Positions 2,973 to 20,030 of a stretch of DNA of 48,748 nt are shown here, piece by piece. The notes under the pieces are model-generated. The model saw only the letters and a list, made by a program, of their open reading frames with translations, was not told the DNA's origin and ran no database searches. A program made the translations under genes and the position numbers. The DNA lies in assembly GCA_021776345.1 (NCBI GenBank), contig JAJFGC010000091.1:1-48748 (forward strand), given 5' to 3'. Source of the DNA: Hyphococcus sp. GTDB taxonomy: Bacteria > Pseudomonadota > Alphaproteobacteria > Caulobacterales > Parvularculaceae. How positions within the stretch are numbered: position 1 is the first letter of the stretch; each line of letters opens with the position of its first letter.

Positions 2973-5681
2973 ATGAAGACAGTCCTTAATATTGTCCTGA
3001 ACCATGCGATTCAGGATGCGCGCGTACTGAAATCGGCTATGGCTGCACGAGATGCGGGATGGCGCGCCGCGGTTATCGGGTTTTCGAAAACTAAAGAAAC
3101 TGAAATACATGATGTAGATGGCGTCGAGGTGATCCTGACGCCAAACGCACGCTGGATATTGGAAGCAGGGGGGACCTGGGAAAGAGATGTAGAGCAAAGA
3201 GATATGGAGCGGTTTGTCGAGGTTACTGCCGAGCTATTCGCTCCCCATGCTGAACGCCTCGATGCTGATCTTATTCACTCACATGACATGTATGGCCTTG
3301 GCGCCGGCGCCTATCTCGTACGGGAGCTGGCGCGTCGAGCCATGACGCCGGCATGGATTCACGATGCTCACGAATATACACGCGGCGCGACAAACATTTC
3401 GCGTAATCTTCAACACCAGGCGATGAAACAGCACCATCGCTTTATCCGTGAACCGGACGGCCTTATCACGGTCAGCGACATGATTGCGGACAACCTTGTC
3501 GCAGAAGATAGCCTGGAGATCCGGCCAACGGTAGTCCTGAACGCCCCCCGCAAGAACACCGGTCGATCTGACGACGATATCCGAAGCTCAATCGGGCTCG
3601 GCGACGATGTCCCTTTGATCGTTTATAGCGGGTCAATTGCCTCCAAGCAGCGCGGGGTAGCCACGCTAATAGAGGCAATGGCTGACATGCCCGACGTCCA
3701 TGTAGCTGTCATCTGTAATCGGCAGGTTGCATTCGATCAACTACGCGACATCGCCGCTGCGAAAGGGGTAGCCGATCGTCTGCATCAGCACGATTACGTT
3801 CCCATAGACGAAGTCACAAATTTCTTGCGCACCGCAACGTTGGGGTGCCACCCCATGCTGCATTTCGGTAATGGCGAAGTCGCTATGCCGAATAAATTAT
3901 TCGAGTACATTCATTCCGGGATCCCGCTTCTTGTAAGCGATGTGAAATCGATGGCTGCATTTGTGCGGAGTCATGAGATTGGTGAGGTTTTTATTGCCGA
4001 AGATGCAGAGAGCCTTGCTGAGCAAGCTATGCGAATTATCTGTAATCGCAACGACTACGCTACAAATATTACCGAGGAGCTGATTGATACGCATTCCTGG
4101 GAGACGCAGGCCCCAAAGATCCTTCACATGTATGACGAGGCGATGGCGCGCAGTGCGCCATCGACTGAAGGTCATATGCGCGTTCTCCACGGCGTAACCG
4201 GGGCTGCAGGGCAACCATGGCAGGCAAGCCGCGCTTTACGCGCCATAGGCGTCGATGCTGACGCCATCCGGGTCTTTGCTGAAAAAACAAAAGCAAACTT
4301 TCGCGTTGACCATGTTTTTGATCACCGAATGAAAGCTGACGCACATCTTTCATTCGCGCGACTGGCTCCGCGATACGATGTTTTCCATTTTTATGCGCGT
4401 AGCTTTTTAGCAAAGCGCCCAAGTTATATTTATCCTAGCGCACAAGACCTTTTGCTTCTACGCGCGGCTGGTAAAGCTGTTGTCTTTAATTTCCGAGGCT
4501 CAGAGGCGCGTATTCCGAGCCTGTTCCGTGAAAAATGTCCTTATCACTGGCTGCCTGAAACCGCCAATGACGAGGAACGCGAACTTGAAAACGTTCAGCG
4601 TGAATTTATTGATTTTGTGCAGGCGATCGGTTGCAAACCGGTCGTCATAGATCCTGAAGTTCAAACCTACGTCCCCGGCGCCGAGATCATTCCCAGAGCG
4701 ATTGACCTTGATGCATGGGCGTATTCAGATCCGCCGGATAATGCCACTCCACGCATTCTTCACGCGCCGACAAATCGAGAGATTAAGGGAACCGATATTA
4801 TCCTTTCTGCCCTTGAGGCGCTCAAGTCTGAAGGCGTTAAATTTGATCTTGAACTGGTTGAAGGTATGACCCACGCCGAAGCTCGTGACGCTTACGCCAG
4901 ATCAGATATCATTATCGATCAGGTCCGCGGCGGGTGGCATGGCGTGCTTGCTCTCGAAGCCATGGCTCTTGGCCGACCGGTGATGGCCTATATTCGTGAT
5001 GATCTTGTGAGCCACTTCCCAGACCCGTCACCAATCGCTCTCACTCGGCCTGAAACGCTCAAGGATGACATTAAACGGCTGCTGGCGAATGCAGACGAAC
5101 GCCGCGCGTTAGCGCGGCGAGGCCGTGAATATGTGGAGCGAGTTCATGACAGCAAAAAAATCGCTAAAAGTTACAAAGTTCTGTACGAGCGCATCCTGAA
5201 AGAACCGCCTGCCGGCGATCTTCTAAAAGCAACCCCGTTTCTATTGCGCCAGCTCGATACATACCAGTTAGAGGCTGCTTGCATCGCGCAAATCACCAGA
5301 AAAACTGATGCAGGCACATTGATGGAACTTTTAGAAAATCTCGAATCTGGACAAACCTTAGTTGTTCCGGCATCAGCTCCAGGCCACAAGCGATATCATG
5401 CGGCTCTAGATCGCGTCCATGCTCGCTTCGAAAATCGTGAGGAACAGTTTAGAGCCGCTATCGAGCGGCAAAGGGCGGCGAAAAACAAGCTTCGCAACGC
5501 TTATGAATCAGCCCGAGCAGCGAAGGCGCGGTTACAAAAGCGCAATGAGGAACTGATTGCTCTTCTCGCGAATGGTAATAAAGACCTCGCCAGTCAATTC
5601 GCTCAGCTTCAGCGCGCCCATAAACGCGGGGGCGTGCGCGCTATTGCCGGCGCCATTGGCCGTAAGATCCGCTGGTTTTGA
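2973..5681 (+). CDS. Two-module GT-B glycosyltransferase with C-terminal coiled coil
   Basis: 902 aa. Module 1: VLNHAIQDARVLKSAMAARDAGW...VYSGSIASKQRGVATLIEAM...MPNKLFEYIHSGIPLLVSDV. Module 2 begins MRVLHGVTGAAGQPWQASRALRAIG...TDIILSALEAL...DQVRGGWHGVLALEAMALGRPVMAYI. Tail is K/R/E/A-rich coil. Paralogous to the first two modules of 8796..12434. Confidence 0.8.
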   Translation: MKTVLNIVLNHAIQDARVLKSAMAARDAGWRAAVIGFSKTKETEIHDVDGVEVILTPNARWILEAGGTWERDVEQRDMERFVEVTAELFAPHAERLDADLIHSHDMYGLGAGAYLVRELARRAMTPAWIHDAHEYTRGATNISRNLQHQAMKQHHRFIREPDGLITVSDMIADNLVAEDSLEIRPTVVLNAPRKNTGRSDDDIRSSIGLGDDVPLIVYSGSIASKQRGVATLIEAMADMPDVHVAVICNRQVAFDQLRDIAAAKGVADRLHQHDYVPIDEVTNFLRTATLGCHPMLHFGNGEVAMPNKLFEYIHSGIPLLVSDVKSMAAFVRSHEIGEVFIAEDAESLAEQAMRIICNRNDYATNITEELIDTHSWETQAPKILHMYDEAMARSAPSTEGHMRVLHGVTGAAGQPWQASRALRAIGVDADAIRVFAEKTKANFRVDHVFDHRMKADAHLSFARLAPRYDVFHFYARSFLAKRPSYIYPSAQDLLLLRAAGKAVVFNFRGSEARIPSLFREKCPYHWLPETANDEERELENVQREFIDFVQAIGCKPVVIDPEVQTYVPGAEIIPRAIDLDAWAYSDPPDNATPRILHAPTNREIKGTDIILSALEALKSEGVKFDLELVEGMTHAEARDAYARSDIIIDQVRGGWHGVLALEAMALGRPVMAYIRDDLVSHFPDPSPIALTRPETLKDDIKRLLANADERRALARRGREYVERVHDSKKIAKSYKVLYERILKEPPAGDLLKATPFLLRQLDTYQLEAACIAQITRKTDAGTLMELLENLESGQTLVVPASAPGHKRYHAALDRVHARFENREEQFRAAIERQRAAKNKLRNAYESARAAKARLQKRNEELIALLANGNKDLASQFAQLQRAHKRGGVRAIAGAIGRKIRWF

Positions 5682-6017: not shown

Positions 6018-6599
6018 TCACTCACCGATGAGGAAAAGCGCCTCTTCACGTTCCTCATAGCATTCGTTTGTTCGTGGACAAACTAGATCCGGACCGAGCA
6101 CCTCACCAGCGCGGCTTACCCAGCCCTTTCGCCGGGCAGGGGCGCCGACCATCAGCGCGTAAGGTTTTACATCCCGGGTAACGACAGCGCCTGCGGCCAC
6201 GAAACAATATTCGCCGAGCTCAGTTGCTCCGTCAGATGGTCCGCATACAATCGTCGCATTCGCGCCGATTGTAGCGCCGCGTCGCGCGATGATTTCTCCG
6301 AATTCCGCCTTGCGGCTAACAAAAGCTCGTGGGGTCAGAACATTCGTAAAAACACAGGAGGGGCCGCAAAATACTCCCTCTTCCAGTGTCACGCCTTCGT
6401 AAATAGAAACGTTGTTTTGAATTTTGCAGCCGTCCGAAATGTTCACATTCGGGCCGATCGCAACATTTTGGCCGATGGATACATTCCGGCCGATCTGCGA
6501 ATCTGACAGGATGTGGGAAAAGTGCCAGATTTTTGTGCCTTCGCCGATAGTGCACCTATCGTCGATAACGGCGGTTTCGTGTATTTGTGGCGGCGTCAT
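6018..6599 (-). CDS. wbpD: UDP-2-acetamido-3-amino-2,3-dideoxy-glucuronate N-acetyltransferase (WbpD-like)
   Basis: 193 aa hexapeptide acyltransferase: [92 protein letters not shown]. Confidence 0.85.
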
Positions 6600-7249: not shown

Positions 7250-8419
7250 TTAGACAAACTCGGTCGTATCGTCAAAAACGTCACCGGACGAGGTTGGGGA
7301 CGGCACGGTCTCCGCTCCGCTCGCCAGCGTAATGTAGTTGGCAAAATATGGATAAAAAGATCCCGTGATCGCCAGAGCAGACATCAAAATGTTCATACCT
7401 CGTAAAAAAAAGCGCAAAAGCACGAGCGAAATGAGGAGCTTCGTGATCGAACCGACTTCGCCATTTTGAAATGCGATGAACCAAAGAACGATCACGAATA
7501 ACGCGATCGACATCGACATAGCATTGATAAACTGTGTAAACGGCGCCAGCGCAAGGCGGGCCTGATAGGCTTCAAGAAATGCGCTGTATTCCTTGTCTCC
7601 AACGACCGTGCTACGCCAGCTTCCCGGTGAGTTGTGATGCGCGGCGAGGAAACGCCTCGCGAAGAACTTCTTTGCGAGTCCAAACTCACTGCCTGCCTCC
7701 TTCATACGGCGGCTCGTTCGCGAGGAATGAATCGTAAAACGAAGGAATGCAGGTGATAGTAGAACGAGCGCAGCGACTAGCATTGCTGTCAAAGAGAAGT
7801 TCAACCAGAAAGACACCGCGAGTGCGATTGCCGCCGTTAAGGCCGCCGGGATAGCGCTTAGCAACTGAATCAGCATTCTCCCCATAAATCGCGGACTTTG
7901 ATGCAGAATCTCCGTTTCTAACTCCGCTGGAATCTCTTGTCCCTCGCGGCGCTTGCAGCGAATGAGTTCGATGGCGGCAACAAAACGTTCTGTTTCGAAA
8001 TCAGCCGCAAGACGAATTGCGTGACGGCGCGCCTTGTAGATCAACACACCGGCAAGCGAAATAAGGAAAGCGATAACGCTGGTCGCCGCGAGAACAGCGG
8101 CTTGATTCTCGGGATCGACGATCTTCGCCAGCATTGGATCGGGTGCGAACGAGATGTGAGTGACGATTTTTATTGCTGCGACTAAAGCAAAGGCTTGCAT
8201 GAACGCACCCGCAAGCTCAAGAATTGCGATCATCGCTGATCGTTTAAAAAATTGTGGCGTAAGACAGCCGAGCAACCAGACCACGCAGACTCTCAAACGA
8301 CGGACTACATCCCGTGCGAATTCGACACCACTTTCAAACCGACCGTCTGTCAAAATGAGTTTCAATTCATGTACTCCGACGATACGTCGCTGCATGTGCA
8401 TCGCAGCGAGACGTTCCAA
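7250..8419 (-). CDS. ABC-exporter-like transmembrane protein lacking a nucleotide-binding domain
   Basis: 389 aa, multiple hydrophobic helices (MIAILELAGAFMQAFALVAAIKIV..., VLAATSVIAFLISLAGVLIY, AIPAALTAAIALAVSFWLNFSLTAMLVAALVLL, MSMSIALFVIVLWFIAFQ). Layout resembles a type IV ABC exporter TM domain. No Walker A or LSGGQ motif. Confidence 0.6.
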   Translation of the reverse strand: MERLAAMHMQRRIVGVHELKLILTDGRFESGVEFARDVVRRLRVCVVWLLGCLTPQFFKRSAMIAILELAGAFMQAFALVAAIKIVTHISFAPDPMLAKIVDPENQAAVLAATSVIAFLISLAGVLIYKARRHAIRLAADFETERFVAAIELIRCKRREGQEIPAELETEILHQSPRFMGRMLIQLLSAIPAALTAAIALAVSFWLNFSLTAMLVAALVLLSPAFLRFTIHSSRTSRRMKEAGSEFGLAKKFFARRFLAAHHNSPGSWRSTVVGDKEYSAFLEAYQARLALAPFTQFINAMSMSIALFVIVLWFIAFQNGEVGSITKLLISLVLLRFFLRGMNILMSALAITGSFYPYFANYITLASGAETVPSPTSSGDVFDDTTEFV

Positions 8420-8544: not shown

Positions 8545-8799
8545 ATGGCATCACTTTCTCCATACGACGCGCCAATAGACAAGGTTGCCATGCTCGTATT
8601 CAACCCTTGCGCACCGGACCACCGCGTAACGAAAGAAGCGGAATATCTCGCTTCAACCGGCAAACAGGTTAGAGTGTACTGCCTACTAAAAGAAGGACTA
8701 CCAGAACGCGAAACGATAAATGGCGTCGAATACCTGCGTTTTGGTATTAACTGGAGTAAGACCCTCAGGCGCATTCTGACCTTTCGAGACCCGTTTTAA
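8545..8799 (+). pseudogene. Orphan N-terminal fragment of a GT-B glycosyltransferase
   Basis: MASLSPYDAPIDKVAMLVFNPCAPDHRVTKEAEYLASTGKQVRVYCLLKEGLPERETINGVEYLRFGINWSKTLRRILTFRDPF* is the first Rossmann strand/helix region of a GT4-like enzyme and ends abruptly. Its stop overlaps the stop of the opposite-strand 1212-aa GT. Confidence 0.65.
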
Positions 8800-11700
8800 G
8801 CCTGTGCGGCACGGTTTTTCGCGACCAATTGGTATACATTTTCGATCGTACGGCATTGAGCGCGCCAGGCATGCTCTTCAGTCAACTGCGCCAACACCTT
8901 CGGAGACGGTTTCGCGGCGCTCCCTTTATCCAATAGTCGCTTGATTGCTGCCGAACAGGCGTTCGCGTCATAGGGCGGATAAATTTCACCAAGATCATAA
9001 CGCTCGACAAATTTTCTGATCTCCTGGAGGTCTGACGCCACGATCGGCAAACCAGCAAAAGCCATCTCAAAGAGCTTGTTCGGCATCGCGTATTCGTAGG
9101 ATAGCGTCACCGGCAAGATCGGGATCACTCCGACGTCGGCGCTTTTAATAAAACTGACGACCGTTGCCGCTGGCACGGGATCAACTAAATGGAAACGGTC
9201 GGCGACACCCAGTTTTTCCGCCTCAGCCCGCAGGGAAACGACCGTTTCTTCCCGCTGAGGCCCTACAGTCGCGAATTCAACATCCGGTAGCGAAACCAGC
9301 GCCTTCAAGACCATATCAATGCCGCGGTTGAGCGTGACGAAACCTACGTAAACAATGAGTTTCGTCTCGCGCGACAAGCCGAGACGTATGCGCAAGGTGT
9401 CTGTGCCTGTCTCAGTTTCATTCTCACCCTCACCCTCTATTACTGGTGCGTTTCTTACAACCGCCGGACGGGTGATATTGTATTTCCGCTGGAGGTGGTC
9501 GGCGATGGCGTCGCTTACTGTGATGACGGCATCGCAGTCCTTGATTGACCGCTTTTCGAGCCACTCGATTGTCTTTTGCCGGATCGGCGGCGGCGGCGGC
9601 TGGCGGTGCGTTTCAAGCTCGTGCGAATCGTAAATCAGCGCCGCACCGGTTTTCTTGGCAGTTGCGCGTCCTGTCGGTAGCGTGTGGAGATCATGAGCAT
9701 GGACCACATCGGGACGCCACTCAGCGACATCTTGCGCGACGGCGTCGCTGAACGCCGCATATTTAAGGAACTGACTGCAACGGCTAATAATGAAGCGGCT
9801 GGCTGGTTTAATTACCAGTTTGCGTGTTGCCGCCTTGGTGATAGAGGCAAGTTTCGTGACCACTAGCTTGAAGGGCGCAAAAGGGCCATCATTACGCGCC
9901 GACTCAGCAAGCCGCTTGAGTCGCGCCGATCGGAATGGACTATACGCCGGTGCTGCTGCAGCTGAACCCGAGAGCGTCTCTTCAGCAAGCTTAAGTTCGC
10001 GCTGCAATATTGAGTTTCTTTCCCGTAGCACGTTTACCTTGCGCTCAAGCGAGCGCATTTTCACACCATTATCTCGATCGTGATGGATCGCTCGCACAAT
10101 GTAGTCGAGCGGCGTATCGAGATCGATCGACATTGGCCTCGAGTTTACTTCCTGATAAAGGTTGTGCAGTTTCTGGGCGACGACATTCGCGTCATGATGC
10201 GCCTCGCAATATGCGCGGCCCGCCTGGGACAAGCGCGCACGCTCGTTCAAGTCCAAGATCAACCGTTGCAAGACAGTGGCCACGGACTCCGGCGTGGCGA
10301 CGGCAATCGGCAACTCGCCGCCCAGATGATGTATAAGATCTTCACGCACATAGGAAACAACGGGCTTGCCAAGAGCCATCGCTTCTACTGCAAGGACGCC
10401 GTACCATCCGATACGTAGCTGGTCGACAATTATATCGGCGCGCTGATAGATTTTTCGCGCCTCGTTTTGCGGAACACCTTCGACGAGTTCAAAATCGAAG
10501 CTCACCCCATTGCGCTGCAGTCGCTCCACGGCGGCAAGCACGGCGTCGCTGCCTTTTACGCCCCGACGGCTTGGCGCATGAACAACGAGCGGTCTCGGGT
10601 TGTCGCCGAGGCCTATAAACGGCCATTTTTCAAGATTAATCGCGCGCTCAACAATGCGCGCCTCGGGCAAATAGGTTTGCAATTCCGGATCGACAACAAC
10701 GACTTCATCGGCGATTGCGCTGGCAAAATCGAGTATACGGCGTTTGGTCTCGTCATTGCCGCCGCTCTGGAGTTCACCTATCTCGCTTTCCGCATAATGA
10801 AAGGGTGTCATTGCTTTAAAGGTGCGGAAGAGTCGCGCCTCACTGCCGCGAAAATGCATGACAATCCGTTTACCGGCGGCCTTTAAGAGAAGCAGGTCGA
10901 AGCCAGCAGGAAATGCGCCGGTTGTCGGATCGATCATGAAACTGCGAGCGTGAAAATGAAAAATGTCAAAATCGTCGATCACCGCCCGCAAGGCGCCGGT
11001 CATTTCCACCGGATCGGCGGCGGATTTTACGGGATAATTGAGATCTGCCGCGTAACCGAATTTTGACGGCAAAACGTGAAGGCTCCTCGCGCTCACGCCA
11101 GGCAGTCGATCCAACGCACGGGCAAGGACCGCGGGTTGACCGGCGGATGGCGTGGGACCGTGAAGAACGCGAATTTCCTCAGCGTTGGCGTCCATCTGTG
11201 CCCCGATGATGGGGTCGATCAGCTTTTCAGGAGGGGCGCCCGCCGCCTTCGCATAGACCTCGAGCAGACGCCGCTCCTGCACTTCCCACGCAAAATTCGC
11301 GATGACCTCGCGCCGAACTTTCTGATCGCGGGCGCCTGCGGATCTATTCGACAGCAACGCATCAATGGTTTTAGCGGCGCCTGCCGGATCGTCGAAGTCG
11401 ACAACCTTGCCGGCGCCGTATTCTTTCATAAAGCCGCTCAAAGCTTTTAGAGGTGGCGCGACAACCGGAAGGCCGGCAAACACAAACTCGAACAGCTTTG
11501 TTGGCAGAGAATATTCTGTGTTTCCATAACGCTCAAATGGAATGACGCCGAGGTCAGCATCCGACAAGTATCGCCAGACTTGATCGTGAGGCGCATAAGG
11601 CAGCCAGTGAACGCGCTGCTTGACGCCGCACGCCTCTGCGGCCGCCTGGATCGCATCAACATGATCGCCTTTATTATTGGTGATAATCGCAAAGTGCGTA

Positions 11701-12434
11701 TCTGGCAGATGATGTAGCACAGGCATGACGCGCTCGACGCCGCGACCGGCTTTGGTCTGTCCTGCATAAACAATAAGCGGCGCCGCACCGATATCGAGGT
11801 TCGCCTTGACTGTGCCGACCGCATCATTGAGAGGCGGATAAAGCGCCGGCGCGTTGAAAATAGTCCGCATCGGCGGCAAACTGCCATATTGCTCCTTCAG
11901 AACGCCTGCAAGCCCCTCCGTCGCTGTCAGATGGTAGTCCGCATCATGAATGAATGCCGCCTCTATATCGCCGGCGAGCGTGCGGAACGCTGGTGGAATA
12001 TGGCTTGAGCCAGCGACCCATTCATGATTGTCATGAATCCAGTAAACAGGGCGGTTACTGGCATCGCGGCGGATTGCTTCGCCGAGCCCCATAAGATACA
12101 TATCGTGTGTATGCAGAACATCTGGCGCGAAGTCAGCAGCGAAACTGCGCACGTTTCGGAAGAAACATGCCATCGCCGTCAAGTGGTGGCGAAATCGAAC
12201 CTTTTCATCACTCTCGTCAGGTTTCCTTTTCGGGATCTCATCGTATTTCGAAAAGAAAAGGCAGCGGACGCCATTGTGGTATTCCTCCAAAGGGCTGTCG
12301 GCCAAGACTGCTTTCGCCGAGCGGCCAACAAGAACAAAGTCCGGAAACATTTTCCGCATTGCCGCGGCCATCTTGAGAACGCGGCTGTCGCGAACAATGT
12401 CGTTCATCACAACCATCATACCGCGGCGAGCCAT
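8796..12434 (-). CDS. Triple-module glycosyltransferase (two GT-B modules, coiled coil, 5'-truncated third GT-B module)
   Basis: 1212 aa. Modules 1-2 parallel the 902-aa GT (MNDIVRDSRVLKMAAAM; EEIRVLHGPTPSAGQPAVLARALDRL; DQLRIGWYGVLAVEAMALGKPVVSYV). Then a coil (KMRSLERKVNVLRERNSILQRELKLAEETL). Then a GT starting mid-domain (DAVAQDVAEWRPDVVHAHDLHTLPTG...MPNKLFEMAFAGLPIVASDL). Confidence 0.8.
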   Translation of the reverse strand: MARRGMMVVMNDIVRDSRVLKMAAAMRKMFPDFVLVGRSAKAVLADSPLEEYHNGVRCLFFSKYDEIPKRKPDESDEKVRFRHHLTAMACFFRNVRSFAADFAPDVLHTHDMYLMGLGEAIRRDASNRPVYWIHDNHEWVAGSSHIPPAFRTLAGDIEAAFIHDADYHLTATEGLAGVLKEQYGSLPPMRTIFNAPALYPPLNDAVGTVKANLDIGAAPLIVYAGQTKAGRGVERVMPVLHHLPDTHFAIITNNKGDHVDAIQAAAEACGVKQRVHWLPYAPHDQVWRYLSDADLGVIPFERYGNTEYSLPTKLFEFVFAGLPVVAPPLKALSGFMKEYGAGKVVDFDDPAGAAKTIDALLSNRSAGARDQKVRREVIANFAWEVQERRLLEVYAKAAGAPPEKLIDPIIGAQMDANAEEIRVLHGPTPSAGQPAVLARALDRLPGVSARSLHVLPSKFGYAADLNYPVKSAADPVEMTGALRAVIDDFDIFHFHARSFMIDPTTGAFPAGFDLLLLKAAGKRIVMHFRGSEARLFRTFKAMTPFHYAESEIGELQSGGNDETKRRILDFASAIADEVVVVDPELQTYLPEARIVERAINLEKWPFIGLGDNPRPLVVHAPSRRGVKGSDAVLAAVERLQRNGVSFDFELVEGVPQNEARKIYQRADIIVDQLRIGWYGVLAVEAMALGKPVVSYVREDLIHHLGGELPIAVATPESVATVLQRLILDLNERARLSQAGRAYCEAHHDANVVAQKLHNLYQEVNSRPMSIDLDTPLDYIVRAIHHDRDNGVKMRSLERKVNVLRERNSILQRELKLAEETLSGSAAAAPAYSPFRSARLKRLAESARNDGPFAPFKLVVTKLASITKAATRKLVIKPASRFIISRCSQFLKYAAFSDAVAQDVAEWRPDVVHAHDLHTLPTGRATAKKTGAALIYDSHELETHRQPPPPPIRQKTIEWLEKRSIKDCDAVITVSDAIADHLQRKYNITRPAVVRNAPVIEGEGENETETGTDTLRIRLGLSRETKLIVYVGFVTLNRGIDMVLKALVSLPDVEFATVGPQREETVVSLRAEAEKLGVADRFHLVDPVPAATVVSFIKSADVGVIPILPVTLSYEYAMPNKLFEMAFAGLPIVASDLQEIRKFVERYDLGEIYPPYDANACSAAIKRLLDKGSAAKPSPKVLAQLTEEHAWRAQCRTIENVYQLVAKNRAAQA

Positions 12435-14399: not shown

Positions 14400-14724
14400 A
14401 TGACGTCGTTACAAATACACGAAATCAATGCAATCGACGATAACTGCCATATCGGCAAAAGGCACAAATATCCGGCGCTTTTCGCACATCTTGGTGGGGT
14501 CACGTATTGGCCACATGTTTCTGTCGGCCAAAAACGTCTCCATCGGTCTGAAAGCACCAGTCGGAGACGGCTGCAAGGTGCAAGATAGCGTTTGCGCATA
14601 TGAGGGTGTCGTGCCTGAAGACGAGGTTTCTGTAGGCCTTTTTGCCTGTCTACGAACCTCGCGACGCCGCCCGCCTTGGCGAATCGAAAATCAAGGCACG
14701 GGGAAATTATCGCTTACCGATTAA
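14400..14724 (+). pseudogene. Degenerate wbpD-like N-acetyltransferase remnant
   Basis: MTSLQIHEINAIDDNCHIGK, then a frameshift, then TNIRRFSHILVGSRIG..VSIGLKAPVGDGCKVQDSVCAYEGVVPEDEVSVGLFACLRT. Parallels intact Wbp[78 protein letters not shown]. Confidence 0.85.
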
Positions 14725-19449: not shown

Positions 19450-19764
19450 TTATGTGGTCTTTCAGCGGTGCATCACCTGCCGATCCGCGCAAGTCAAGCC
19501 CGCTGATAAAAAAACGTCGTAATCAGTGTACGCAAGCTCAGGCGCGGCGAATTCTAAGACCAGTGGCGCTAATCAGCCAGGCAACACGCCGAGGCTGTAG
19601 GCGCCTACAAACCGATCAACCCCACCAAATAGCACTTTGTTTCTGCCAGCGACCGCTGATATCAATTCTTCGCCTCGTGCGCTCTCTCATAAGCGCCGCG
19701 AAGTTTAGCGAGTTTTTCCTCATCGCTTCGACGCTGGCGCGCGTAAAAGCGGCGTCGAATCCGA

Positions 19765-20030
19765 TCTTTGAAAGCCTACAGGCGTTAGTTGCCTCGACGC
19801 GAGCAGCGCTTGTGGCGACTGATTCAGTTGGACTTCAGAAAGATGCCTATTTCAACGAGGTTCCTTGCGTGACGATGCGCGGCGAGACCGAATGGATGAA
19901 AACGATCACACACGGATGGAATCGTCTGTGGTCGGAACCGGCCTTTCAGGAGAGGCGCGCAATTACGGAATATGGCGGCGGTCAGTCGGCTGAGAAGATC
20001 ACTGACATTATTGTCAGAGGGCTCGCCTGA
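19765..20030 (+). pseudogene. C-terminal remnant of a WbpI-type UDP-sugar 2-epimerase
   Basis: PIFESLQALVASTRAALVATDSVGLQKDAYFNEVPCVTMRGETEWMKTITHGWNRLWSEPAFQERRAITEYGGGQSAEKITDIIVRGLA* matches the 2-epimerase C-terminal pattern TDSGGxQKEAyf.xVPCvTlRdETEW...GWN. No recognisable N-terminal part upstream. Confidence 0.7.

Follow-up and report, generated by a model that had tools for sequence, protein, structure and literature searches.

A probable tail swap by inversion between two neighbouring glycosyltransferase genes in a polysaccharide gene cluster of Hyphococcus sp.

Background

Glycosyltransferases (GTs) of CAZy family GT4 adopt the GT-B fold, as represented by GlgM (6tvp) and MshA (3c4q). 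Two-module enzymes consisting of a GT4 module and a Glyco_trans_1_2-type module occur in Psychrobacter and in a further relative (G073). Invertons and gene-altering programmed inversions are reportedly treated by Chanin (2024) and Milman (2023). In the mba/UU172 system of Ureaplasma, chimeric genes are made by inversion between specific repeats (PMC3047005), and invertons bear inverted repeats of 10–40 nt (PMC11892184). Convergent genes may also share their last nucleotides; TTAA is among the tetramers reported for the class with overlapping stop codons (PMC2174442).

We analysed a 48,748-nt stretch of Hyphococcus sp. DNA (the window) containing a 1212-aa "triple glycosyltransferase". Its last module, termed the body here, resembles GT4 enzymes in having a Glycos_transf_1/Glyco_trans_1_4 C-lobe and most of the N-lobe, but the first strands are encoded by a separate ORF on the opposite strand, the head, and the remainder is the third module of a long protein. 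Known two-module GTs, in contrast, terminate in a coiled or basic tail and are without a third GT module. As in Ureaplasma and in invertons, coding segments of neighbouring genes appear to have been exchanged by inversion to give chimeric ORFs; unlike those reversible systems, which have inverted repeats and a recombinase, the present locus revealed no such repeats, no identified recombinase and no evidence of reversal. We consider it highly probable that an inversion swapped the tails of two neighbouring genes.

Organization of the locus

The locus is a polysaccharide gene cluster. The positions that a first-pass annotation had given for the 1212-aa ORF, the opposite-strand head and their overlapping stops proved exact (Table 1). 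The head ends at a plus-strand TAA (8797–8799) and the fusion at a minus-strand TAA (8798–8796); ATG 8590 is an alternative possible start of the head ORF.

Table 1 Coordinates of the fusion locus and of genes used for comparison
Feature	Coordinates	Strand	Remarks
1212-aa fusion ORF	8796..12434	-	two-module GT (residues 1 to ~855) plus headless GT4 body
Two-module GT part	9816..12434	-	GT4 module (residues 1-400), Glyco_trans_1_2-type module (~405-800), then coiled/basic tail
Headless GT4 body, ~340 aa (VIKPASRFIISRCSQFLKYAAF...AQA*)	8796..9815	-	now third module of the fusion
Orphan GT4 head, 84 aa (MASLSPYDAPIDKVAMLVFNPCAPDHRV...GINWSKTLRRILTFRDPF*)	8545..8799	+	residues 13 to ~70 = N-terminal part of GT4 N-lobe
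TTAA tetramer	8796..8799	.	contains both TAA stops
Left inversion breakpoint, range	8755..8797	.	high end: set by the in-frame TAA of the head
Right inversion breakpoint, range	9795..9890	.	low end: onset of body homology; high end: in-frame joins with plausible linker length
902-aa two-module GT, same locus	2973..5681	+	34% identity to the fusion's two-module part; without third module; built-in control
Psychrobacter GT4 + two-module GT pairs	L035:7734-11752; L037:7983 to ~11900		
G278, GT4 in two ORFs	L056:4160-5206, region upstream to ~5.55 kb	-	TGA stop of head overlaps GTG start of body (GTGA)

Three further ORFs of the window deserve mention. A 192-aa ORF (19452–20030, plus strand) matches only positions 250–304 of the 347 of the Epimerase_2 profile and looks like a truncated UDP-GlcNAc 2-epimerase. 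Another gene remnant, a 98-aa ORF (14428–14724, plus strand), seems to be a degenerate piece of a hexapeptide acetyltransferase similar to the one encoded intact at 6018–6599. The minus-strand ORF at 7250–8419 codes for a 389-aa membrane-like protein with a weak ABC_membrane match (E 0.03), in which no ATPase domain was seen.

The third module of the fusion protein

In Pfam searches, the 1212-aa protein proved to have three GT C-lobes. The C-lobe of the third module is complete (PF13692, positions 2–141 of 142, E 3.9e-36), while its N-terminal Rossmann lobe is not: PF13439 (Glyco_transf_4) matches only from position 51 to 164 of 170, and a PDB search aligned the module to residues 94–358 of GlgM 6tvp. 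Judged from these alignments, the fusion ends in a GT4 module that is devoid of the first ~50–90 residues of the N-lobe, which bears out the first-pass view that the module starts mid-domain without its first Rossmann strands. An AlphaFold model of the body alone (mean pLDDT 88; alignment of 10) shows a GT-B fold, with fold matches at E 1e-15. In the model, the strand that runs into the motif DVVHAHD comes first, indicating that the earlier strands of the N-lobe are absent from the body.

Head and body as parts of one GT4

Ten relatives were obtained from a genome-wide pattern scan, each via the body motif MPNKLFEM and none via a head motif. The homologues found in this way are complete GT4 proteins, in which the order is head, linker, body and the N-terminal regions align with the orphan head (E 1e-8 to 7e-5). 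The closest of the ten are GT4 proteins of 402–421 aa from an Alteromonadaceae MAG, Plasticicumulans, a Beijerinckiaceae MAG, Sulfurovum and Megaira, and body homologues of ~400 aa are present in several phyla.

Head and body were also scored apart against 172 proteins, from all loci fetched by then. All of the seven best head matches were among the eight best body matches, an overlap that has a chance of ~2e-7 among the 45 best-scoring body matches, and the heads of other GT4s scored near zero against the orphan head. The eighth of these body matches, G278, had been fetched by the body alone (40% identity). Its head is encoded directly upstream of its body on the same strand in another frame; it shares 57% identity with the orphan head over 53 residues (30 identical) and reached a score of 154, as compared to at most 47 in 1000 shuffles. 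The two-ORF state of G278 could reflect a naturally split GT, but a frameshift in the linker would account for it just as well. With this exception, the close homologues are all single proteins. Two further genomes from the family of G278 yielded no further close relatives, searches of viral contigs gave no matches, and the plasmid search gave one distant body match (34%).

Within the 3.64-Mb genome, the head matches in one place only, and neither a second copy of head or body nor another headless member of this GT4 family was found in this assembly. By sequence comparison, the orphan head supplies the N-terminal part that the body lacks, the two being of the same GT4 subfamily and collinear in relatives; an assignment to different GT subfamilies, which the first-pass annotation had named as contrary to its proposal of an inversion, is not what we found. 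Chance is not a reasonable explanation, because the head has a single genomic match, is of the same subfamily and abuts the 3' end of the body in the sole orientation that re-inversion can join.

The two-module glycosyltransferase and its relatives

Homologues of the two-module part comprise the 902-aa protein of the same window, G073 (838 aa) and the proteins of Psychrobacter fozii (930 aa) and Psychrobacter sp. NG25 (898 aa), in all of which a coiled or basic tail follows the second module and a third module is lacking. Residues 1 to ~800 of the fusion align with these homologues over their length, with 28–29% (module 1) and 38–42% (module 2) identity to the G073 and Psychrobacter proteins. 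Full-length homologues of the fusion in distant taxa would, as pointed out in the first-pass annotation, speak against an inversion; no 1212-aa homologue or other triple fusion was found in 59 relatives, 386 genomes of the same class and 399 of the same phylum (about 800).

In P. fozii and Psychrobacter sp. NG25, the ordinary, intact counterpart of this GT4 gene (405 aa) is located 8 nt upstream of an intact, co-directional two-module GT gene. Going by this gene order, the GT4 and the two-module GT are natural neighbours which occur as separate enzymes, and conservation of the pair suggests that both work on the same polysaccharide. As regards relatives with the uninverted order, intact, separate neighbours exist in Psychrobacter; these are co-directional, and no close relative with both genes in the exact convergent order was found at this locus.

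Reconstruction of the uninverted arrangement

When the segment from ~8755–8797 to ~9795–9890 was re-inverted in silico, head and body merged into one ORF of ~430–450 aa, and a two-module GT of ~850–890 aa with a stop of its own resulted. The join is in frame when the two breakpoint coordinates sum to a multiple of 3. Frame arithmetic and worked examples showed that, for every in-frame pair of breakpoints, the two-module gene enters the frame of the head and stops at TAA 8797–8799. Since the frames are locked in this way, the present stop of the head is the two-module gene's own stop, and the present stop of the fusion is that of the GT4. The notion that the two-module enzyme lost its own terminus and gained a headless GT is therefore supported, its stop being the TAA that now ends the head. 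In the uninverted arrangement, TTAA 8796–8799 forms a 4-nt tail-to-tail overlap of two convergent genes.

Re-inversion of approximately the segment first suggested (~8800 to ~9900) yields a GT4 joined in frame, with a correction at the left end. If that end is placed at 8799 or 8800, the TAA of the head usually remains in frame, so that the breakpoint must be at or below ~8797. The 6-bp pair TTAAGC (8796) and GCTTAA (9989) was considered as a crossover site and ruled out by reading the sequence, as the in-frame TAA of the head would stay. The breakpoints are located to within ~40 bp on the left and ~95 bp on the right. The linker between the Trp of the head and LKYAAF comprises 36–41 residues in 400-aa homologues and is much longer in others; the linker of the re-inverted GT4 falls within the range of the family, but due to this variation the linker length cannot fix the breakpoints. 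Comparison of the two-module tail with its homologues, intended to place the right breakpoint, was not significant, with 85–288 of 300 shuffles performing as well.

Proposed history of the locus

We infer an ancestral state of two adjacent convergent genes with TTAA as the overlap of their stop codons: on the plus strand an ordinary GT4 gene (~400–450 aa), on the minus strand the gene of a two-module glycosyltransferase (~850–890 aa). A segment of ~1.0–1.1 kb would then have been inverted, one of its ends falling within the GT4's variable linker and the other among the final few codons of the two-module gene, immediately beyond the stop of the GT4. The outcome would be a tail swap. The GT4 head would have kept its own start and gained the last 0–14 codons and the stop of the two-module gene, so that the final 0–14 residues of the head ORF, and its stop, probably derive from the two-module tail; the two-module gene would have lost those codons and acquired, in frame, the remaining ~340 codons and the stop of the GT4. 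The arrangement of head and body, each present in one copy, is the only one that a single inversion would explain. The model rests on a draft assembly, and the co-directional order of the Psychrobacter pair counts against a convergent ancestor. The two overlapping frames of G278 also count against the model, since they suggest that this linker may be broken in other ways than by inversion.

Alternative explanations

The true chromosome might be uninverted, the flip having arisen during assembly or from chimeric molecules in the library. The genome, from a single strain, is indeed a draft of 293 contigs with an estimated contamination of 3.1%. Such an artefact is nevertheless very unlikely: it would require two clean junctions, both in frame; head and body have no second copy in the assembly; and no inverted repeat >6 bp joins the breakpoint regions, leaving a graph assembler without a repeat to turn on. 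A second alternative is a programmed, phase-variable inversion, in which a recombinase would toggle between the fusion and separate GT4 and two-module enzymes. There are known cases of surface-polysaccharide and antigen genes altered by inversion (PMC3047005; PMC11892184), and long frames are open in both orientations here. However, the longest inverted match between the breakpoint regions, 6 bp, is at the level of 300 random placements (5–10 bp) and short of the repeats of invertons, and no recombinase was identified among the main ORFs of the window scanned with Pfam. We thus regard a switch as highly improbable, and a one-off, illegitimate inversion as the likelier origin.

Independent events, with the third module acquired by gene fusion and the head a relic of a different GT gene, would fit with the occurrence of other gene remnants in the locus. 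Yet the two pieces are of the same subfamily, abut exactly on opposite strands with overlapping stops, and are the only head and the only headless body of this GT4 family in the genome; the closest relatives of the head among those tested belong to the same GT subfamily as those of the body. Coincidence of this kind appears extremely improbable. A further proposal concerns the outcome and is compatible with the inversion: the GT4 may still work as a split enzyme, its head peptide and the fused body meeting in the cell. G278, the closest relative, already consists of two ORFs which overlap by GTGA as in translationally coupled genes, and both pieces of the Hyphococcus GT4 are free of stops and frameshifts. 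A recent inversion would likewise leave both intact, though, and the two ORFs of G278 may result from a frameshift or sequence error; the split falls within one Rossmann domain, and the single-protein state of the other close homologues also argues against a working split GT, which we deem very unlikely.

Functional consequences

With the initial β strands of the N-lobe, the acceptor lobe, residing on another polypeptide, the ordinary GT4 was probably inactivated by the inversion. The two-module enzyme, which retains both modules and loses at most ~14 C-terminal residues, may still work, with the GT4 body as a passenger. There is little likelihood that the free head peptide docks on the headless third module, so that a split glycosyltransferase would be attached to the two-module enzyme in a three-activity complex. 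If it does, the split of G278 would independently show the same tolerance a second time, and a head acting in trans would provide a direct test of how far the GT-B fold tolerates splitting.

We advise against annotating the 1212-aa "triple glycosyltransferase" as three functional enzymes. The kind of event is familiar, but the case is unusually clear: it exemplifies how, where the stops of convergent genes overlap, a small inversion would lead to an in-frame tail swap and generate a novel multidomain protein in a single step, with neither repeats nor a mobile element involved.
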